Assembly (NCBI GenBank): GCA_021199795.1
Contig: JAJQHJ010000009.1
Location: 62,001 to 126,000, forward strand
DNA: 64,000 nt
Direction: 5' to 3'
Source of the DNA: Oscillospiraceae bacterium
Lineage (GTDB): Bacteria > Bacillota > Clostridia > Oscillospirales > Ruminococcaceae
The position numbers and the translations under genes were made by a program. Below, piece by piece: positions 29,510 through 42,832 of this stretch. The notes beneath the pieces were generated by a model. That model was not told where the DNA came from. It saw nothing but the letters and a program-made list of their open reading frames with translations, and searched no databases. Position 1 is the stretch's first letter. Each line of letters starts with the position of its first letter.

Positions 29510-29950
29510 TTAATTCTTCTTTGTGAGATAATCTTCCAGGAACTTTACAGCCTCTATATAGCCATTGAAGCCGAGTCCCATATATGTTTTCACACATGCC
29601 TTGCCAGCATATGAAATCTGGCGGAAATCCTCGCGCTCGTTTACAGCCGATATATGAACCTCAACTGCCGGAATCGAGACTGCCTTGAGGGCATCCAGGA
29701 TTGCAACGCTCGTGTGGGTGTAGGCGGCAGGATTGATGACGATTCCGTCGAAAACACCGTAGGCTTCCTGAATCCTGTCGACGATTGCTCCCTCGTGGTT
29801 TGACTGGAAGAATTCCACTTCAATTCCCCTGCTGTCGCAATAATCGGAAATAAGCTTCACTAGAGACGAATAGGTTTCTGAACCGTAGATTCCCGGCTCC
29901 CTGATTCCGAGCATATTTAAGTTCGGACCGTTTATTACAAGCAGCTTCAT
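29510..29950 (-). CDS. aroQ: 3-dehydroquinate dehydratase, type II
   Basis: Third step of the shikimate pathway. A 146-residue type II enzyme with MKLLVINGPNLNMLGIREPG (catalytic Tyr region at YGSETYSSL) and FFQSNHEGAIVDRIQ. GIVINPAAYTHTS and VEVHISAVNEREDFRQ follow. Type II dehydroquinases act by a trans elimination through an enolate. It is the last gene of the aro operon, and its ATG overlaps the aroE-aroK stop (ATGA). Confidence 0.95.
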   Translation of the reverse strand: MKLLVINGPNLNMLGIREPGIYGSETYSSLVKLISDYCDSRGIEVEFFQSNHEGAIVDRIQEAYGVFDGIVINPAAYTHTSVAILDALKAVSIPAVEVHISAVNEREDFRQISYAGKACVKTYMGLGFNGYIEAVKFLEDYLTKKN

Positions 29951-31176
29951 ATTGAGCCCTCGATTCCTTTGATTATTTTGTCGACTGTTTCCCGCACTGT
30001 GCCGTTGTTGTCGACCCGGATGTCGGCGAATTTCTCGTACATGGGCTTGCGTTTGCGGTATAGCTCAGATAAATCCGACTTCTGGGAGATTGGTCTGCCG
30101 TCGGTCGGGAGCTTGGATGTGTCTCGCTCAAGCCAGACTATAATGCCATTCTGGTGGAGGAGGTTATAGTTTTCTTCCCTTGTGACAACTCCGCCTCCGG
30201 TGGAGATTATTCTCTCCGAAAGCTTGCCTGAGGCTTCCATTTCAGCTGTTTCAAGCCGACGGAACTCCTCTTCTCCGGAATTCTCAAATATCTCGGGGAT
30301 AGTCATCCCGGCATCCTTTACGATTTCAGCGTCGGTTTCTATAACAGGTCTATGAAGCCTCTGACCGAGTGCCTGGGTTACAACCGATTTGCCGCTGCCG
30401 GGCATACCTATCAATATAATATTTTCGAGCTCTCTTGTCAATGAGTTTTCAATAAATGTAACCGAATCGTCACTAATTTCTTTTTTCTGAAAGTGCTCGG
30501 AGCTGTATTTTGCCTGGGCTACAAGCATGTGGAGCCCGCTCTTATATTTCAAGCCAAGACTTTCAGCTTGCAGAATAAGAGCCGTCCTCATCGGGTTATA
30601 GATTACATCCAGAACACACTCGCAGGACTTGATTCTTCTTAAATCCAAAGGAGATACGCCGTTTTTCGGGTACATTCCGACAGGGGTTGCATTTACAACG
30701 AGAACTGCGTCAGAATGCTTCTCGATATTATCGTAGTTATCTTCACCATGGCGACTTATCGGGACTACTTCTGCGCCCATTTCGCTCAGGACTTTCTGGA
30801 CGGTGACTCCGGTGCCGCCTGTTCCTAAGACAAGAGCTTTCTTCCCGGATATGTCGACTCCGGTTTCAAGAACCATGCTTTTAAAGCCATAGTAGTCTGT
30901 ATTGTAGCCGTAGATTTTGCCGTCGCGCCTGACAAGAGTATTAACGCTTCCAAGGCTTTTTGCGATATCCGAAAGCTCGTCACATAGGGAGGCGGCTACT
31001 TTTTTATATGGGATGGTGACATTCAAACCGTCCCAGTCGCCGTTTAAGATGAAGTCTTCGACCTTATCTTTGGGGACTTCATAGAGACGGTAGTCGTAAT
31101 CACCTAAGTAAGCATGGATTCTCGGGGAGTAGCTATGCCCGAGAGTCTCTCCCAAAAGACCGCATTTAAGCGTCAT
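29947..31176 (-). CDS. aroE-aroK: Shikimate dehydrogenase-shikimate kinase fusion
   Basis: A 409-residue bifunctional enzyme for two consecutive shikimate steps. Residues 1 to ~245 are AroE: KCGLLGETLGHSYSPRIH, LNVTIPYKKVAASLCD with the catalytic Lys, YNTDYYGF and the NADP loop VLGTGGTGVTV. Residues ~252-409 are AroK: the Walker A motif GMPGSGKS (257-264), TDAEIV for shikimate, STGGGVVTRE and the lid DGRPISQKSD. AroE and AroK are usually separate; the order of the fusion is dehydrogenase first. It is translationally coupled to aroQ and starts 2 bases after pheA. Confidence 0.94.
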   Translation of the reverse strand: MTLKCGLLGETLGHSYSPRIHAYLGDYDYRLYEVPKDKVEDFILNGDWDGLNVTIPYKKVAASLCDELSDIAKSLGSVNTLVRRDGKIYGYNTDYYGFKSMVLETGVDISGKKALVLGTGGTGVTVQKVLSEMGAEVVPISRHGEDNYDNIEKHSDAVLVVNATPVGMYPKNGVSPLDLRRIKSCECVLDVIYNPMRTALILQAESLGLKYKSGLHMLVAQAKYSSEHFQKKEISDDSVTFIENSLTRELENIILIGMPGSGKSVVTQALGQRLHRPVIETDAEIVKDAGMTIPEIFENSGEEEFRRLETAEMEASGKLSERIISTGGGVVTREENYNLLHQNGIIVWLERDTSKLPTDGRPISQKSDLSELYRKRKPMYEKFADIRVDNNGTVRETVDKIIKGIEGSI

Positions 31177-31178
31177 GT

Positions 31179-32351
31179 TTACATTACCTCTCTGTAACTG
31201 CCTAAGTAGTTATATTCGCTGCAGATGTCGCCAAGTTCACTCATCAGCTGCAGGAACTGAGGAGAATAGACGGAGGTGTCAAGGTCGAAATAGAACATGA
31301 ACTCAAAATCCTTGTCGGGAATCGGGCGGCTTTCGAGCTTAGAAAGGTTAATTCCGAAAGCATAGAGACGTGACAGGAATTTATAGAGCGAACCCGGCTT
31401 GTCTTCGAGGACGCACATAAGGCTGGTTCTGTCTGCACCGGGATAGATTTCGAGGTCTTTCGATATGCAGATGAAGCGGGTGTAGTTATTGTCGTTATCC
31501 TGAACTGTAGGCTTTATGCAATCCAAGCCGTAGAGCTTCTGGCACTCGCTTGAGGATAGGGTGGCAATGTCAGATCTCGAAGACTCTGCAACCATCTTTG
31601 CGGCAACTGCGGTGTTCTCGCATGGGATAACCTTGACTCCCTTGAGAGTGGACAAGAATTCGGCGCACTGACTGATAGCCTGCTGATGGGAATAGATTTC
31701 GGTTATGTCCTCAAGCTTGGTTCCTTTCTTTGCAAGAAGATTGTGTTCAACCTTGAGGCGGATGCTTCTTACGATATTGAAGCTGTGCTTGGTCATGAGG
31801 TCATAGACGGAATTTACCGAGCCGGCGGTGCTGTTCTCAAGCGGAATTACGCCATACTTGCAGAAGCCCTTTTCGATTGCAGTGAAGACGGCGTCGAAGT
31901 TTGAGAAATACATGATAGTAGGAGACTTGAAAAGCTTCTCTGCGGCTTTCTGGGAATATGCGCCCTCAACTCCCTGACATGCTACAACTGCACGCTCCGG
32001 GAAAAGCTGGGGTGTGTTCTCTATTGCCTGGGAAATATTTTTGCTCAGTTCACTTCCATGACCTATGAGTCTGTTCTGATAGCCGCGGCTGAGCTCAAGG
32101 ATAAACGAATAGAGGAGCTCGGTGTATTCTTTCAGATCGTCGGGAGTTTTGTCGACAACGTCCTGAATCTTTTCGCGCTCACGGCGCATGTCAAGAACAG
32201 GGAGACTATGCTCCTTTTTAAAGGATGCCAGTCCTGCAGCGGTTTCCATTCTCTCGCCAAAAAGCTTGACTATTTCATTGTCTATCTCGTCGATCTTGTC
32301 GCGATAAACCTTTCTGCCATCGGAATTTGTGGTAATCTTCTCAGTTTCCAT
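31179..32351 (-). CDS. pheA: Bifunctional chorismate mutase/prephenate dehydratase
   Basis: A 390-residue P-protein. An AroH/AroQ-type chorismate mutase (residues ~15-95: YRDKIDEIDNEIVKLFGERM, RREREKI) is followed by prephenate dehydratase (ACQGVEGAYSQKAAEKLF and the STAGSVNSVYDLM region). A C-terminal ACT domain (LEDKPGSLYKFLSRLYAFGI, LESRPIPD) gives phenylalanine feedback inhibition. It yields phenylpyruvate. The start at 32351 follows AAAGGA by 9 bases; the longer open frame upstream would overlap aroC coding sequence. Confidence 0.94.
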   Translation of the reverse strand: METEKITTNSDGRKVYRDKIDEIDNEIVKLFGERMETAAGLASFKKEHSLPVLDMRREREKIQDVVDKTPDDLKEYTELLYSFILELSRGYQNRLIGHGSELSKNISQAIENTPQLFPERAVVACQGVEGAYSQKAAEKLFKSPTIMYFSNFDAVFTAIEKGFCKYGVIPLENSTAGSVNSVYDLMTKHSFNIVRSIRLKVEHNLLAKKGTKLEDITEIYSHQQAISQCAEFLSTLKGVKVIPCENTAVAAKMVAESSRSDIATLSSSECQKLYGLDCIKPTVQDNDNNYTRFICISKDLEIYPGADRTSLMCVLEDKPGSLYKFLSRLYAFGINLSKLESRPIPDKDFEFMFYFDLDTSVYSPQFLQLMSELGDICSEYNYLGSYREVM

Positions 32352-32376: not shown

Positions 32377-33444
32377 TTATATGTACTTCTTGTACTCCAG
32401 ATATGCGTCGTAAACGGCGATTGCGGCGGCTGCTTCAACGCAGGGAACAGCTCTTGGCACTATGCACGGGTCGTGGCGACCCTTGACCACAAGTTCGCCC
32501 TCTGTTAATGTATCAAGCCTTACTGAGTGCTGCTTCTGCGAAATCGACGGTGTCGGCTTGAATGCAACTTTGAATACGACCGGCATTCCGGTTGTAATGC
32601 CACCAAGGATTCCTCCGCAGTTGTTGGTTGTGGTGACGACTTTGCCGTCCCTGACTTCAAACGGGTCGTTATTCTCGCTTCCACGGAGCTTTGAAGCCTC
32701 AAAGCCGATTCCGAACTCAATTCCCTTTACCGCCGGGATACCGAAAACGATGTTTGCAATTTTATTTTCCATTCCGTCGAACATCGGGTCTCCGAGTCCC
32801 ACGGGAAGCCCAAGCACTTTACACTCGACTATTCCTCCGACCGAATCGCCCTCACTCTTGGCGGATGCAATGCACTCCTGCATTTTCTCTGCTTTCTCGT
32901 CGCTTACTGTTGGGAAAGGCTTCTGAGCAGTTGCTTCAAGAAGCTCGCCATCATCTGAAACATCGCCTATTGAAGCTATTCGGGATATAACTGTTATGCC
33001 CAGGCTGTCAAGAATCTGTAGGACTATTCCACCTGCTAAGCAGAGAGGAGCTGTAAGTCTTCCCGAGAAGTGCCCTCCTCCGGCATAGTCCTGATTGCCA
33101 CCGTATTTTACTGATGCCGTGAAGTCGGCGTGACCGGGTCTTGGGAGAATTTTGAGCTCGCTATAGTCATTTGAGCGGGTGTCGGTGTTTCTTATGATTG
33201 CCGTGAGTGGTGCGCCGCAGGTAACTCCGTCTTTGATTCCGGATATAAACTCCGGCTTGTCTGCTTCCTTGCGGGCAGTTGAATATGCATTCTTACTGGG
33301 AGCGCGACGTGATGTAAAGGCTTCCAGCTTGTCAAAATCGATTTTTATTCCCGCCGGGAGCCCCTCAAGCGTCATTCCAATTGCCGCAGAGTGGGACTGA
33401 CCGAATATGGTGAGCTTAATGTTACTGCCGATACTGCTTGCCAT
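32377..33444 (-). CDS. aroC: Chorismate synthase
   Basis: A 355-residue FMN-dependent enzyme that makes chorismate from EPSP. Family signatures present: LTIFGQSHSAAIGMTLEGLP, RNTDTRSNDYSEL, RPGHADFTASVKYGG, GGGHFSGRLTA, and VKGRHDPCIVPRAVPCVEAA near the C-terminus. It is the seventh and last common step of the shikimate pathway. It lies 15 bases after aroA, and pheA follows at 25 bases. Confidence 0.97.
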   Translation of the reverse strand: MASSIGSNIKLTIFGQSHSAAIGMTLEGLPAGIKIDFDKLEAFTSRRAPSKNAYSTARKEADKPEFISGIKDGVTCGAPLTAIIRNTDTRSNDYSELKILPRPGHADFTASVKYGGNQDYAGGGHFSGRLTAPLCLAGGIVLQILDSLGITVISRIASIGDVSDDGELLEATAQKPFPTVSDEKAEKMQECIASAKSEGDSVGGIVECKVLGLPVGLGDPMFDGMENKIANIVFGIPAVKGIEFGIGFEASKLRGSENNDPFEVRDGKVVTTTNNCGGILGGITTGMPVVFKVAFKPTPSISQKQHSVRLDTLTEGELVVKGRHDPCIVPRAVPCVEAAAAIAVYDAYLEYKKYI

Positions 33445-33459
33445 CCTGCACCGTCCTTT

Positions 33460-34710
33460 TTATGATTTTATATTGAGTGTCGCAAAATCCTCCCAGAAGT
33501 CTGGATAGGACTTTCTCACGCACATGCTGTCAAGTACTGTTACTTTACTGGTTGATGCACAAGCCGCAACTGCCGCGCTCATAGCGATTCTATGGTCGTT
33601 GCAGCTGTCAACTGTCCCTTCGGCGAGATTTTTTACACCGGTGATGATTATTCCATCGGAAAGCTCTTTAGCATTTCCGCCGAGATTGTTTATGAGTGCG
33701 CATGTCGATGCGATTCTGTCAGATTCCTTGATTCTCAGGCGTCCGGCATTGATTATATGGGTTTCACCCTCACAGACTGACGCAACCGCGCTTAAGGTCG
33801 GGATCAGATCGGGAATCTGGGAGGCGTCTATTGTTACGCCATGGAGCTCGCCTCTTCTTACGGTCACGGAAGTGCCATCTATGGTGACATCTGCTCCCAT
33901 TTCCTTGAGAACTGAGATCACCGCTTTATCGCCCTGGGATGAATCAGGATTCAAGCCCATGACTGCGACTCCGTCACTGGATAGCGCACCCATGCAGAGG
34001 TAGAACGCGGCATTTGAATAGTCGCCCTCGACTGTAAAGCAGTCTCCCATGTCAGGCTTCTGGTTACCTTTTATACGGTAGGTATCGCCATGATGCGTGT
34101 ATTCTATTCCAGACTTAAGAAGAAGCTCCTCAGTCATTGCGACATAGCCCTTTGACTGGAGGACTCCGGTCACACGGAGCGTTGAATCTCCATCCAGAAG
34201 TGGCAAAGCCAGAAGAAGCCCGGTTATATACTGGGATGAAACGTCACCCGGGATTTCATATTCGCCGGGAGTGAGCCTGCCGGAACACTTTATAGTGGTT
34301 TCGGTCTTAGTTATACTCATTCCGTGGCTTTTGAGGACTTCATCCAGAGGACTCAGAGGGCGGTCGATGAGGCGACCTTTAGGAATGAATTCTCCCTCAA
34401 CTCCCAAAGCTCCAAAAACTGGTATGAGAAACCGAAGAGTCGAGCCGCTTTCGCCACACTCAAAAGTGTCTGAACGCTGAGTATGTCCGACGGGCGAGAC
34501 ATGTATTTTGTTGCCTGCAATCTCAATATTCGCCCCTGCTGAATTCATGCAGGAAGCTGTGGCGACAATGTCATTTGAAATGCCTTTACAGGTAATTTCA
34601 GCATCATGTCTACCGAGAGCTGCCAGGATAACTGCTCTGTGTGCCTGGGATTTCGAGGCAGGGATGACTATTTCGCCGGAGCGTTCGCCAGGGAGAAATT
34701 CTTTTGTCAT
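33460..34710 (-). CDS. aroA: 3-phosphoshikimate 1-carboxyvinyltransferase (EPSP synthase)
   Basis: A 416-residue EPSP synthase: PASKSQAHRAVILAAL (shikimate-3-phosphate binding), ECGESGSTLRFLIPVFGALG (PEP/glyphosate region), SSQYITGLLLALPLL, and RIKESDRIASTCALI near the C-terminus. In the PEP loop it has ESGSTLRF rather than the NAGTAMR-type class I motif, which points to the less glyphosate-sensitive class II-like group; that is a prediction. It begins 1 base after the aroB stop. Confidence 0.95.
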   Translation of the reverse strand: MTKEFLPGERSGEIVIPASKSQAHRAVILAALGRHDAEITCKGISNDIVATASCMNSAGANIEIAGNKIHVSPVGHTQRSDTFECGESGSTLRFLIPVFGALGVEGEFIPKGRLIDRPLSPLDEVLKSHGMSITKTETTIKCSGRLTPGEYEIPGDVSSQYITGLLLALPLLDGDSTLRVTGVLQSKGYVAMTEELLLKSGIEYTHHGDTYRIKGNQKPDMGDCFTVEGDYSNAAFYLCMGALSSDGVAVMGLNPDSSQGDKAVISVLKEMGADVTIDGTSVTVRRGELHGVTIDASQIPDLIPTLSAVASVCEGETHIINAGRLRIKESDRIASTCALINNLGGNAKELSDGIIITGVKNLAEGTVDSCNDHRIAMSAAVAACASTSKVTVLDSMCVRKSYPDFWEDFATLNIKS

Positions 34711-34711
34711 A

Positions 34712-35752
34712 TCAAAGCCAATCCTTAAGATCTGTTTTCGGGAGCTTTAAGAGCTCGCAGTGACCGATTTTTCTGGGGACTACTATTGTAATGGTGCCGC
34801 TCGTGGCTTTCTTGTCAGAAAGGGCAAGGGTGTACATTTCGTCCGCCGTGAATTCGGTCTCGGTCGGGAGACCGTATTTTTTGAGAAGCGCGATTATGCG
34901 GTTGCAATCCGCCTCGCTCAGGTAACCATACTTTACGGCGGAGCGCGAAATGGTCGCCATGCCTATGGCAACCGCCTGACCATGGAGGGTCTGGAAGCCG
35001 CTTAAGCCCTCGACTGCGTGACCGACGGTGTGACCGAGATTGAGAAGCATTCTCTCGCTGGTGTCGAACTCGTCGGCTTTGACGATATCCCGCTTCATGG
35101 TTACACATGTAGTGATCACGTTTTCAAGCTGATTTTTGGCAGGTGTCTCCTCAAGCTTGGTGAAGAATTCCTCACTGAAGAGGACTGCATACTTTATAAC
35201 TTCGGCACAGCCGCAGAGGTATTCCTCCTCGGGGAGTGTAGAGAGCGTTTTCGGGTCACAGATTACAGAGGCAGGCTGATAGAATGAACCAACCTGGTTC
35301 TTGCCGCTCTCAAGGTTGACGGCAGTTTTTCCGCCTACCGACGAGTCGACCATTGCAAGAAGAGTTGTCGGAATCTGGACGAACTTGACTCCACGCTGAT
35401 AGGTTGCAGCTGCAAAGCCGGTTAAGTCCCCCACCACTCCGCCTCCGAGGGCTACAAGAAGATCGCTTCTTGTTACTTTCATTTCAAAGAGGAATTCGAG
35501 GAGATTGATATAACAGCTCATGCTCTTTGAACGTTCGCCGTGCGGAACGACGAATTCATGGACTGTGAAGCCCTCGTTTTCAAGGCTCTTTGTAACCCTT
35601 TTGCCATAGATGGGATAGACGTTGTCGTCGGAAACTATTACGGCAGTTTTGCCTTTTACAAGAGGCTTGCAGAACTCGCCACACTTATCTAAAATCCCGT
35701 CAGAGACGGTTACATCATAATTACGGGATGCCGTGACATTTACAACACTCAT
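34712..35752 (-). CDS. aroB: 3-dehydroquinate synthase
   Basis: A 346-residue NAD- and metal-dependent enzyme for the second shikimate step. Visible are VPHGERSKSM, the NAD loop LVALGGGVVGDLTGFAAATY, VDSSVGGKTAVNL, and the metal-binding His pair LNLGHTVGHAVE plus HGQAVAIGM. The ATG overlaps the tyrA stop (ATGA), and the operon order is aroF-tyrA-aroB-aroA. Confidence 0.96.
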   Translation of the reverse strand: MSVVNVTASRNYDVTVSDGILDKCGEFCKPLVKGKTAVIVSDDNVYPIYGKRVTKSLENEGFTVHEFVVPHGERSKSMSCYINLLEFLFEMKVTRSDLLVALGGGVVGDLTGFAAATYQRGVKFVQIPTTLLAMVDSSVGGKTAVNLESGKNQVGSFYQPASVICDPKTLSTLPEEEYLCGCAEVIKYAVLFSEEFFTKLEETPAKNQLENVITTCVTMKRDIVKADEFDTSERMLLNLGHTVGHAVEGLSGFQTLHGQAVAIGMATISRSAVKYGYLSEADCNRIIALLKKYGLPTETEFTADEMYTLALSDKKATSGTITIVVPRKIGHCELLKLPKTDLKDWL

Positions 35753-36582
35753 CTTCCGTCAACCTCCGCTTTAATCTTTCTTCCATCATCTAAGAGCCGA
35801 ACAAGCTCCTCTTTATCGTTTTCACGAATCGCAGTTCTGTATTGGTCGAGGTTTTCGACCAAGATATCCAGCTCTTTTATAAGATTGTCGCCGTTTTCAA
35901 GGAACAGCTCCGCCCACATTTCAGGGTTGAGCCAGGCGACTCGGGTCATGTCCTTATAGCTGCCTGCCGAAAAGCCCTTGTGTTCGCGAGCTGTCGGGCT
36001 CTTGATGTAGGCATTTGATACCACGTGGGCAAGCTGAGAGGTGAAAGCTATCATTTCGTCGTGCTTTTCGGCTGTGGTGACAGAAATGCTTCCGAAACCG
36101 GCGGGCTGGAGAAGCTCTTTCGTATGGCTTAGAAGCTTGATGCTCGGCTCGCCATTCGGAACGAGCACCATCGGTGCGCCCTTGTACATATCTGCTTTTG
36201 CGTACTTATAGCCGGAATTATGGGTTCCCGCCATCGGGTGACCTCCGACAAAGGTGAAGCCGTATTCATCGGCAAGCTTAAATCCAACCTCGGTGACCTT
36301 GCGCTTGGTTCCGCAGCAGTCTATCACAACCGGCTTTGAACCGAAATAGGGCGCGGCTTTCTCAAGATATTCTATGCAGGCATCCGGATAGACTGAGATT
36401 ATGACTATGTCGCACTCATGAAGCCTGTCCATAGTAAGCTCATCATCGACGTCTCCTGCAAGCTTAAGATAGTCAAGAGCAGATTTACTCCTGTTCCAGC
36501 CGAGGACAGTGTGCCCAGCCTTTTTGTAAGCCTTGGCGAATGAGGCTCCTATGAGCCCCAAGCCCACGATTCCGGCAATCAT
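35749..36582 (-). CDS. tyrA: Prephenate dehydrogenase
   Basis: A 277-residue NAD-dependent enzyme that converts prephenate to 4-hydroxyphenylpyruvate, the tyrosine precursor. It begins with the Rossmann loop IAGIVGLGLIGASFAKAY and has the catalytic GGHPMAGTHNSGYKYA segment (His involved in decarboxylation). No ACT domain follows, so feedback by Tyr would need another mechanism; the upstream leader attenuator offers one at expression level. The ATG overlaps the aroF stop (ATGA). Confidence 0.93.
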   Translation of the reverse strand: MIAGIVGLGLIGASFAKAYKKAGHTVLGWNRSKSALDYLKLAGDVDDELTMDRLHECDIVIISVYPDACIEYLEKAAPYFGSKPVVIDCCGTKRKVTEVGFKLADEYGFTFVGGHPMAGTHNSGYKYAKADMYKGAPMVLVPNGEPSIKLLSHTKELLQPAGFGSISVTTAEKHDEMIAFTSQLAHVVSNAYIKSPTAREHKGFSAGSYKDMTRVAWLNPEMWAELFLENGDNLIKELDILVENLDQYRTAIRENDKEELVRLLDDGRKIKAEVDGR

Positions 36583-37583
36583 CCGAGTGCAGCCTCCCTG
36601 ACAGCAGTGATTTTCTTGGATAATGATGCATACTCCTCTGGTCTTAAGGATTGTGCGCCGTCGCAGAGAGCGTGCATCGGGTCGTTATGTACTTCAATGA
36701 TAAGTCCGTCTGCTCCTGCTGCGGTTGCCGACATAGCCATAGGAGGAACGAGTCTTGCCATGCCAGTAGCGTGGCTCGGGTCAGCGATTACGGGGAGGTG
36801 AGAAAGCTCATGGAGCATAGGAATTGCAGAAATATCCATTGTGTTTCTGGTGTAGTCGCTGTAGGTTCTGATTCCTCTCTCGCAGAGCATGACTTTTTCG
36901 TTGCCGGAAGCCATGATGTATTCAGCACTCATGAGGAGCTCTTTAAGTGTATTTGCAAGACCACGCTTGAGTAAAATAGGCTTATCGGTCTTGCCGAGCT
37001 CCTTGAGCATTTCAAAGTTCTGCATATTTCTTGCGCCGACCTGGAGGACGTCTACATCCTCGAAGAGAGGCAGGTCGTTTATGCTCATGATTTCGGTTAC
37101 AATAGGAAGACCGGTTTCCTCACGAGCAATCTTCAGAAGCTCCAAGCCCTTTGCATGGAGACCCTGGAAGTCATAGGGAGAGGTTCTCGGCTTGAATGCG
37201 CCGCCACGGAGCATATTTGCGCCAGCAGCCTTGACCGCCTTGGCAACCGCAACAATCTGCTCTTCAGTCTCAACTGAGCAGGGACCGGCTATCATGCAGA
37301 AGTTTCCTCCGCCGATTTTCACTCCCTTTACGTCTATAACAGTGTCATCAGGGTGGAATTTACGATTGCAGCACTTGAACGACTCGGTGACTCTGGCGAC
37401 GGAATCGACGATATCAAGGCTCTCGATGAGATCCTTGTCGACCTTGGTTGTGTCGCCGATGAGACCCAAGACCGTTGTGAACTCACCCTCGGAAATATGA
37501 ACCTTAATGCCCATTCCTCCGAGCCAATCGATAAGCTGATCGCGCTTTTCCTCTGGAACATTTTTCTTTAATGCTACTACCAT
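36579..37583 (-). CDS. aroF: 3-deoxy-7-phosphoheptulonate synthase, type I-beta
   Basis: A 334-residue DAHP synthase, the entry step of aromatic synthesis. Residues 1 to ~70 form the ferredoxin-like regulatory domain of Thermotoga-type enzymes. The barrel follows with CMIAGPCSVETEEQ (PEP/metal Cys), MLRGGAFKPRTSPYDFQG, LLKRGLANTLKE, and VIADPSHATGMARLV. The start at 37583 is fixed by AAAGGA nine bases upstream. A much longer reading frame runs back through the leader, but it overlaps the attenuator and is not conserved-looking. First structural gene of the operon. Confidence 0.95.
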   Translation of the reverse strand: MVVALKKNVPEEKRDQLIDWLGGMGIKVHISEGEFTTVLGLIGDTTKVDKDLIESLDIVDSVARVTESFKCCNRKFHPDDTVIDVKGVKIGGGNFCMIAGPCSVETEEQIVAVAKAVKAAGANMLRGGAFKPRTSPYDFQGLHAKGLELLKIAREETGLPIVTEIMSINDLPLFEDVDVLQVGARNMQNFEMLKELGKTDKPILLKRGLANTLKELLMSAEYIMASGNEKVMLCERGIRTYSDYTRNTMDISAIPMLHELSHLPVIADPSHATGMARLVPPMAMSATAAGADGLIIEVHNDPMHALCDGAQSLRPEEYASLSKKITAVREAALG

Positions 37584-37642
37584 AATAATTAGTCCTTTCT
37601 TTTTGTCGGAAAGAAGTCTGCCGGTTACTTTGGCAGTTTCAC

Positions 37643-37671
37643 AAAAAAGCTGCACAAGTAACCTGTGCAGC
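37643..37671 (-). terminator. Attenuator terminator of the aro operon
   Basis: On the minus strand, GCTGCACA (37671-37664) pairs with TGTGCAGC (37656-37649) across a 7-base loop, followed by six T (37648-37643). It lies ~60 bases before the aroF start codon, inside the leader. Its 5' arm is also one strand of the competing antiterminator. Confidence 0.88.
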
Positions 37672-37739
37672 TGATAAACAAAACTTTTTGTTGCAACACA
37701 AATCACTTTACCTTGGGGGATCAGCGCATGGTAAAGTAA
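37656..37739 (-). promoter_or_regulatory. Competing leader hairpins (1:2 and antiterminator 2:3) of the aro operon
   Basis: Segment 1 (minus-strand 37739-37730, TTACTTTACC) pairs with segment 2 (37712-37703, GGTAAAGTGA). Segment 2 continues as AAGTGATTTGTGTTGC (37708-37693). This can instead pair with segment 3, GCTGCACAGGTTACTT (37671-37656), over 16 positions with one mismatch and four G-U pairs. Segment 3 is the 5' arm of the terminator. Segment 1 covers the last Tyr/Phe codons of the leader peptide. A ribosome stalled there would free segment 2 to form the antiterminator. Confidence 0.75.
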
Positions 37740-37819
37740 TAATAATATGCAAAGCAGAAAACATTGGCTGAGCCAACAGTTTGTTTTGACATCGTGCAAC
37801 TCTCCGTAAAATACTTCAT
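37721..37819 (-). CDS. Phe/Tyr-rich leader peptide of the aro operon, 32 aa
   Basis: A 33-codon reading frame between the promoter and aroF. It starts at ATG 37819 with GAGGA nine bases upstream and ends at TGA just before segment 2 of the leader hairpins. The last 13 residues are VFCFAYYYYFTMR: four consecutive Tyr codons and three Phe codons in nine positions, all placed over or next to hairpin segment 1. That is the layout of leader peptides in ribosome-mediated attenuation (compare pheL, pheA leaders of enterobacteria). An internal ATG at codon 10 is a possible alternative start. Confidence 0.78.
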   Translation of the reverse strand: MKYFTESCTMSKQTVGSANVFCFAYYYYFTMR

Positions 37820-37847
37820 TTGAACGATTCCTCGTTCATCTTTTTAG

Positions 37848-37876
37848 ATTATATACGACTGCAAACCGTTTGTCAA
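37848..37876 (-). promoter_or_regulatory. Consensus sigma-A promoter of the aro operon
   Basis: On the minus strand, TTGACA (37876-37871), a 17-base spacer and TATAAT (37853-37848): both hexamers are perfect. Transcription should begin near 37841, about 22 bases before the leader peptide start. Confidence 0.92.
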
Positions 37877-42635: not shown

Positions 42636-42832
42636 AGAAGAGGTAGAGGCGCAGCAAGCCAAGAGTAGCATTGCCTATATGACCGCCAGGGTCGGCATTT
42701 GTGAAAGGGGCTGCTGCCGAGGACGCTTTACGGCAAAAAAGTGATCCGGCAATGCGGTTAATATCCGTTTTGCTGTCGCACGAAAAGTGCGGAGAGCTAT
42801 CGACGTTTCATACTGCGCGGCTGTACGCGCTC
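42636..42832 (+). promoter_or_regulatory. Lysine riboswitch (L box)
   Basis: The leader shows the conserved landmarks of lysine riboswitches in order: GAGGTAGAGGCGC, CCAAGAGTAG, GTGAAAGGGGCTGCTGCCGA, and GTGCGGAGAGCTATCG. It ends in a GC-rich segment (TACTGCGCGGCTGTACGCGC) that can pair back with the 5' side as P1. A terminator lies just downstream, and the genes that follow make lysine. High lysine should favour termination. Ends are approximate. Confidence 0.88.

Follow-up and report, generated by a model that had tools for sequence, protein, structure and literature searches.

The locus analysed here raises the question of how an operon for the shikimate, phenylalanine and tyrosine pathways is controlled in a gut bacterium, a clostridial member of the Bacillota. 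Leader-peptide attenuation is the textbook switch of biosynthetic operons in E. coli; in Firmicutes, T-boxes or TRAP would be expected instead. The T-box expectation for Firmicutes agrees with the available extracts of two publications (PMC1262725, PMC2965389). A preliminary description of the window, which is the whole stretch of 64,000 nucleotides that was analysed, had read the region upstream of aroF as a ribosome-mediated attenuator. The conserved leader frame, the pairings and the in-frame codon selection reported below support this reading, and we consider it very probable that a ribosome-mediated transcription attenuator controls the operon from aroF to aroQ.

Architecture of the leader and operon

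The features of the leader and of the operon are listed in Table 1. The gene order after the attenuator is aroF-tyrA-aroB-aroA-aroC-pheA-aroEK-aroQ, and tyrA was found downstream of aroF in 78/80 loci. The last ORF is presumably an aroQ-like type II dehydroquinase gene, as recognised from its sequence.

Table 1. Coordinates of the aro leader elements and operon genes in the window
Feature	Position	Strand	Basis
Sigma-70 promoter: -35 TTGACA, -10 TATAAT, spacer 17	37848..37876	-	12/12 consensus positions
Short 5' hairpin of the leader RNA, TGAACGA-GGAA-TCGTTCA	37821..37838	-	sequence
Shine-Dalgarno GGAG for the leader ORF	37802..37805	-	sequence; conserved GGAGAGTTGCACGATG in 10/10 close sequences
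Leader peptide, preferred 23-codon reading MSKQTVGSANVFCFAYYYYFTMR	37721..37792	-	conserved start
Same frame, 32-codon reading from ATG 37819	37721..37819	-	upstream start not conserved
Control codons TAT TAT TAT TAC TTT (Tyr4 Phe1)	37733..37747	-	
Segment 1 (5' arm of 1:2)	37730..37740	-	
Segment 2; 37712-37702 pairs with segment 1, 37708-37696 with segment 3	37696..37712	-	
Segment 3; 37668-37656 pairs with segment 2, 37671-37662 with segment 4	37656..37671	-	
Segment 4 plus U tract (intrinsic terminator)	37643..37658	-	
aroF, DAHP synthase (TIGR01361)	36579..37583	-	NCBIfam match; ATG 37583
tyrA, prephenate dehydrogenase	35749..36582	-	best family 156 bits, below cut-off 295
aroB	34712..35752	-	NCBIfam match
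aroA	33460..34710	-	NCBIfam match
aroC	32377..33444	-	NCBIfam match
pheA, chorismate mutase-prephenate dehydratase	31179..32351	-	211 bits, below cut-off 219
aroE-aroK fusion, one ORF	29947..31176	-	both halves below curated cut-offs
aroQ-like type II dehydroquinase	29510..29950	-	ORF; name from sequence

The promoter, described earlier as perfect, does match the consensus at every position. The short 5' hairpin of the leader RNA has a different stem in close relatives, in which the hairpin itself is kept (e.g. ACGGCGAAAGCCGT; judged by eye). The leader ORF ends in VFCFAYYYYFTMR with the stop TGA at 37723-37721, and 137 nt separate this stop from the start of aroF, which has its own AAAGGA at 37598-37593. 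A leader of 32 codons had been proposed, and the frame from ATG 37819 is indeed present, but only the start of the 23-codon reading is conserved. The ATG at 37792 is preceded by GGAGAGTTGCACG, with GGAG 9 nt upstream, and GGAGAGTTGCACGATG around this start is kept in all ten close sequences whose 5' part was inspected. The upstream ATG is absent in L003, L004, L007 and L035 and out of frame in L038 and L039, so the shorter reading is preferred and the leader probably has 23 codons.

Three helices were found in the leader RNA of the window, of which 2:3 excludes both 1:2 and 3:4. The 1:2 helix (37740-37730 with 37712-37702; 11 bp; -11.4 kcal/mol) overlaps the Tyr/Phe control codons, just as the preliminary description had it. 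The antiterminator 2:3 pairs 37708-37696 with 37668-37656 (-18.1 kcal/mol); the pairing claimed earlier is therefore present, but it comprises 13 contiguous pairs plus two and not 16 positions. The intrinsic terminator 3:4 (37671-37649; 10 bp; -14.7 kcal/mol) is followed by TTTTTT ahead of aroF, again as described. Compared with shuffled sequences, the folding z-score was -3.3 for the whole leader and -3.0 for the hairpin region.

An additional pairing between GGTTACTT and AAGTAACC (37623-37630) had also been pointed out. The complementarity exists in the window, but it is not conserved in relatives. Among 11 close sequences inspected, the window included, the site reads AAGTTCCC in six (L003, L004, L007, L035, L036, L039), of which L004, L007 and L039 have identical last 130 nt; it reads AAGTTACC in one and AAGTGACC, which is G-U compatible, in two, and L034 is without it. 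Judging from these sequences, the extra loop pairing is incidental.

Selection on aromatic codons in related leaders

AroF loci were taken from the best 80 of 525 relatives from species genomes and 30 further loci from other genomes, own included, giving 110 loci. These yielded 94 upstream regions distinct in their last 130 nt, and the 93 of at least 200 nt were used for the ORF count. An aromatic ORF, with at least six F/Y/W per 10 codons, was present in 72 of the 93 unique regions, compared with 48/1,860 dinucleotide shuffles and 0/93 reverse complements. Seven other residue groups were counted at the same level: LIV reached 41/93, AGP 8/93 and the remainder 3 at most. The LIV count would reflect the usual hydrophobic bias of T-rich frames.

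The leaders were compared by codon in alignment A1, which has 66 rows and derives from 76 regions in which a script found both leader and terminator. L001 was replaced by the window, 16 regions were left out (L003, L017-L022, L024, L025, L027-L030, L051, L065, L107) and another six, L062, L063, L069, L071, L102 and L103, were included manually once they had been read. Over codons -8 to -1 of the 66 leaders, TTY:TTR was 110:0 in frame, against 48:42 and 37:144 in the other two frames. Since this bias is confined to the reading frame, the LIV figure is no rival to the aromatic signal, and the sequences indicate that selection acts at the amino-acid level on aromatic codons. A promoter matching at least 10/12 consensus positions precedes 58/65 leaders (one row of A1 was too short), compared with 11/325 mononucleotide shuffles. 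The comparison with close relatives, which covered both the leader frame and the pairings, turned out in favour of the proposal: the ORF recurs in the proportion given above, and helices 2:3 and 3:4 covary.

The leader had been described as a Tyr/Phe leader. Its aromatic run is confirmed, with the qualification that Tyr codons dominate and Phe comes second. Tyr occupies codons -4, -3 and -1 in 46, 56 and 50 of the 66 aligned leaders, codon -2 is Phe or Tyr in 58, codon 0 is Phe in 62 and codon +1 is Thr in 60. Because they fall in segment 1, Phe 0 and Thr +1 may be accounted for by pairing. It is conceivable, then, that the attenuator senses tyrosine only and that Phe near the stem is kept by RNA pairing, as UUU of segment 1; the Tyr majorities, the position of the nearly constant Phe 0 within segment 1 and the place of tyrA after aroF are all in line with this. 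We regard it as rather unlikely, however, because Phe is also common outside the stem (26/66 at codon -7, 25 at -6 and 23 at -2), TTR Leu codons are absent from codons -8 to -1, and the operon in the window also makes phenylalanine through pheA. Tyr is probably the main signal of the attenuator and Phe the second.

Covariation of the three pairings

In A1, 95.4% of cells form the 2:3 helix; double-change cells number 42, compared with 9.9 in shuffles, and in slid registers the helix is formed in 55% of cells at most. The double changes fall in four pairs, a number of pairs reached by 189/500 shuffles. Pair 77:151 is GC in 26 rows, AU in 14, UA in 7, CG in 6, GU in 5 and another combination in 6, with 2 gaps. 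Column 77 is unpaired in the counted 1:2 register and column 151 lies outside the counted 3:4 helix, so that this pair is, in the majority of rows, evidence for the antiterminator only. The window is an exception, in which G77 also pairs with C46 in 1:2 and C151 belongs to the final pair of the terminator stem. Across the rows, column 77 varies against a constant C in column 46, and 46:77 pairs in 37/66 rows; the changes at column 77 are thus not explained by 1:2.

The 3:4 helix is formed in 94.9% of cells and has 46 double-change cells compared with 12.1 in shuffles, so the terminator claimed for the window also covaries among the 66 leaders. Helix 1:2 is paired in 85.1% of cells with a covariation score above all shuffles. 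Its double-change cells number 13 compared with 11.4 in shuffles, and a register slid by -1 gives 23. The 1:2 register of the window fits the majority poorly, two of its middle pairs being formed in just 12/66 rows, and it was set aside; the count used the register of L058 and is therefore fitted to a member of the alignment. In the aligned sequences, 1:2 is the weakest of the three pairings in covariation.

These results bear on two further explanations. The ribosome could be needed not for termination control but mainly for coupling or re-initiation at aroF, and leader genes have been proposed to raise downstream translation generally (PMC4833913, as far as its available text goes). We hold this to be very unlikely, given the covarying terminator with its U tract between leader and aroF, the distance of the leader stop from the aroF start and the ribosome-binding site that aroF has for itself. 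Still less probable is it that the ORF encodes a functional small protein, e.g. a membrane peptide, with the terminator as a plain 3' end or a constitutive attenuator. In its favour, the peptide is hydrophobic, with a conserved aromatic run, but the peptides differ in length and sequence beyond that run, and segment 2, which follows the first base of the stop in 54/66 leaders, covaries with segment 3 of the terminator.

Distribution of the element

A covariance model, R1, was built from A1, the 66 rows of which match it by construction. Matches were obtained in 22/99 relatives (E 1e-3), 28/394 genomes of the order (E 1e-5) and 5/398 genomes of the phylum (E 1e-4). In total, 48 different genomes carry one match each, 43 ahead of aroF and 5 ahead of trpB2, with target genes assigned by adjacency to AroF matches or by tblastn; these genome counts are lower bounds, as stricter filters lose weak matches. 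The matches of the order-wide scan span 11 families. With an E limit of 1 and milder filters, 63 sources gave 27 matches, which trailed off to the level of chance.

On the named collection, R1 matched 67/77 aroF loci and the window. Among these 68 matches, 66 are training rows, and L060 and L064 come from outside the training set; the other 10 of the 77 close aroF loci gave no R1 match. Most of the named records belong to uncultured Oscillospiraceae, Ruminococcus-like bacteria, Lachnospiraceae and 'Clostridia', and many are from gut or rumen by their titles. Oscillibacter sp. ER4 (L074), with a record that bears no metagenome-assembly label, also has the element. A relative of AroF was sought in viral contigs and none was found.

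Within the genus, the element is carried by all 16 genomes (own included) with an orthologous aroF of at least 87% identity, and the 15 genomes with a divergent aroF (51-65% identity) all lack an R1 match. In these divergent congeners, 5/9 aroF upstreams inspected by eye follow another reading frame directly. One further locus, L107, has a very different aromatic aroF leader peptide (FFYDAFFGFYFGGYFYG) and a strong terminator at about 1700-1930 without an R1 match; this leader is possibly an independent attenuator.

Leaders ahead of trpB2

The trpB2 target belongs to the TrpB-like family NF009057/TIGR01415. The five leaders matched ahead of it read KYWRYFNF (twice), KYWRYFSF, KYWYFYFT and IWWRFT, and every one contains Trp. 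Three genera are represented among them (g33 three times, g54 and g350), so these are not five independent events. Trp occurs anywhere in the leader in 9/87 aroF leaders (66 of A1 and 21 from genome matches) compared with 5/5 trpB2 leaders, with a Fisher p of 4e-5 that is too small, the sequences being related. Trp was counted over the whole leader as three of the five trpB2 leaders carry it outside the -8 to -1 codon range: by our own reading of the sequences, it lies 2-4 codons ahead of the stem in L192 and L198 and about 10 codons ahead in the other three. In the aroF leaders, Trp stands within the aromatic run in seven (L049, L057, L071, L084, L089, L091, L202; for L071, which A1 misaligns, the Trp codons were taken from the ORF) and is the last residue in L088 and L212. 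These sequences indicate that control codons follow the target pathway, which fits ribosome-mediated attenuation.

A link between the Trp codons of aroF leaders and downstream trp genes was considered and rejected, as trpE is absent within about 2 kb and only tyrA, aroB and aroA are found there. The attenuator scaffold ahead of trpB2, with Trp codons in the leader, was seen in L185, L186, L190, L192, L198 and L199. A second tiny ORF, MRIILYWRWRVRAVNK-, with two Trp codons, was noticed by eye between the attenuator and trpB2 (L185:1420-1473, minus strand; L190:521-574). In 3/3 loci with enough sequence, trpB2 is followed by a sodium-solute symporter gene and a phenylacetate-CoA-ligase-like gene (paaK), both matching below the curated cut-offs of their best families. 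This gene set could salvage indole or aryl acids.

Other sensing systems in the genome

The preliminary description had noted the absence of a T-box at the aro leader, and the Rfam models bear this out: at gathering scores, neither T-box (RF00230) nor any other Rfam family matches the leader. With permissive filters, just four weak hits appear (E 0.76 to 3.5, all below threshold), and no T-box, riboswitch or leader family is among them. Elsewhere in the genome there are seven T-box matches, three above the gathering score and none at the aro operon. One of them, at 59 bits and below the gathering score, precedes trpE, which was identified by family match. The remaining matches precede genes that we take from their translations to be valS, leuA, cysE, alaS, thrS and asnB. 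By coordinates, a T-box stands directly ahead of an aroF copy in two relatives (G071:C4 and G061:C65). From these sequences, the sensing system of aroF differs between relatives. Among relatives without the attenuator, a T-box was found in 0/16 loci and in 1/20 further loci (L117, about 590 nt upstream of aroF).

That the leader is itself a T-box or metabolite-binding riboswitch with an incidental ORF is scarcely credible, even with seven T-box matches in the genome and a T-box ahead of aroF in two relatives, given the Rfam result and since neither the in-frame TTY:TTR bias nor a codon change linked to the target gene is expected of a riboswitch.

The upstreams of trpE, hisG and pheS in the same genome show no other amino-acid-rich leader, with at most three of one residue per 8. 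A lysine riboswitch lies in the window at 42636-42807 on the plus strand (80.4 bits). Palindromes such as GCGCTTTAAAGCGC occur near the aroF promoters of L061, L065, L068, L102 and L103 (5/94 upstreams, searched with one pattern), and a similar one was seen by eye near the promoter of L185. The palindromes at aroF point to a repressor that binds DNA in some relatives.

Proposed mechanism

We propose that RNA polymerase would initiate at the promoter and make the leader while a ribosome translates the 23-codon peptide. When charged Tyr-tRNA (and Phe-tRNA) is short, the ribosome would stall on UAU-UAU-UAU-UAC-UUU and cover segment 1. With segment 1 hidden, segment 2 would be free and 2:3 could form before segment 4 is made, so that no terminator arises and transcription would proceed through the genes from aroF to aroQ. 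When charged tRNA is ample, the ribosome would reach the stop near segment 2, or leave and allow 1:2 to form. Helix 3:4 would then form and transcription would end at the U tract. Stalling, read-through and charged tRNA as the signal are the parts of this mechanism that we infer from the sequences.

The position of the stop codon bears on the second state. Relative to column 77, where the 2:3 helix starts, it lies between -14 and +3 nt in 46/66 leaders, in which it is most often the TAA of GGTAAGG. In 8/66 leaders, the window among them, it lies 15-18 nt before column 77, and in 12/66 it lies 8-23 nt beyond. In the window the distance is 17 nt, further than in most of the 66 leaders. Folds of the window with the RNA hidden past the stop gave 3:4 at +9, +15 and +18, and 2:3 at +12. 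Moreover, when segment 1 is masked in the full-length leader, segment 4 included, the best fold is 3:4, so the switch would have to be kinetic, like that of classical systems.

The host poses a further difficulty. As a phylum, Bacillota fall into the runaway-transcription class (PMC13323073, in its available part), and terminators close after stop codons are described as a proxy for runaway transcription in the accessible text of PMC7858274. In crude terminator calls for the window, 10/17 follow a stop by no more than 12 nt, which fits this class. A working attenuator in a Bacillota host would need local coupling or polymerase pausing.

Comparison with known systems

Leader-peptide attenuators of Proteobacteria include those of trp, his, phe, leu, thr and ilv. 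They are described in general in PMC9413887 and, by its available sections, share with the element a leader ORF with cognate codons, exclusive 1:2, 2:3 and 3:4 pairings and a terminator ahead of a biosynthetic operon. On the other hand, the aro leader matches no Rfam leader family, mixes Tyr and Phe codons, precedes a common-pathway operon and occurs in a Bacillota host.

The nearest published element that we found is uORFC-13-1, known from 24 sequences ahead of aroF, all from Acholeplasma or environmental DNA. It contains one Phe codon or more and is predicted to regulate via the speed of Phe incorporation (PMC8632094, as far as its description was available). Both have a short ORF with Phe codons and a terminator upstream of aroF. 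Compared with that description, the element reported here is Tyr-led, its 2:3 and 3:4 helices covary and it has a Trp-containing form at trpB2.

In Firmicutes, His leaders are reported in few genomes (17; PMC9413887), and a hisS/hisZ leader is also reported (PMC2965389). In the available extracts they resemble the aro element in using leader-peptide attenuation instead of a T-box, but they respond to histidine only and precede other genes. The T-box itself (RF00230) also senses amino acid supply through terminator control; unlike the aro leader, which has no RF00230 match, it needs no ORF. The gbs2033 element, reported upstream of the Enterococcus aroFBC-tyrA operon, is likewise a cis-acting RNA ahead of an aro operon in a Firmicute, but by the partial description at hand (PMC4448216) it is a proposed riboswitch of Lactobacillales. 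A Tyr/Phe aro attenuator of Clostridia was not found in searches of an open-access library, which misses most subscription papers.

Implications

A covarying attenuator with aromatic codons heads a whole shikimate, phenylalanine and tyrosine operon in many uncultured gut and rumen Clostridia. With T-box matches elsewhere in the genome, that of trpE included, both sensing systems coexist in one cell. On balance, we favour the view that a codon-programmable aromatic attenuator is spread across the order of the window: one RNA scaffold that carries Tyr/Phe codons at most aroF-tyrA loci seen, Tyr/Phe/Trp at some, and runs with Trp at trpB2. What makes the element notable is the classing of Bacillota among 'runaway transcription' bacteria. 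It could work only if polymerase and ribosome stay close over the leader, despite that class assignment (PMC13323073, in the part available). It would mean, if the codon-programmable attenuator is real, that RNA polymerase and ribosome are required to keep in step over the first ~150-200 nt.
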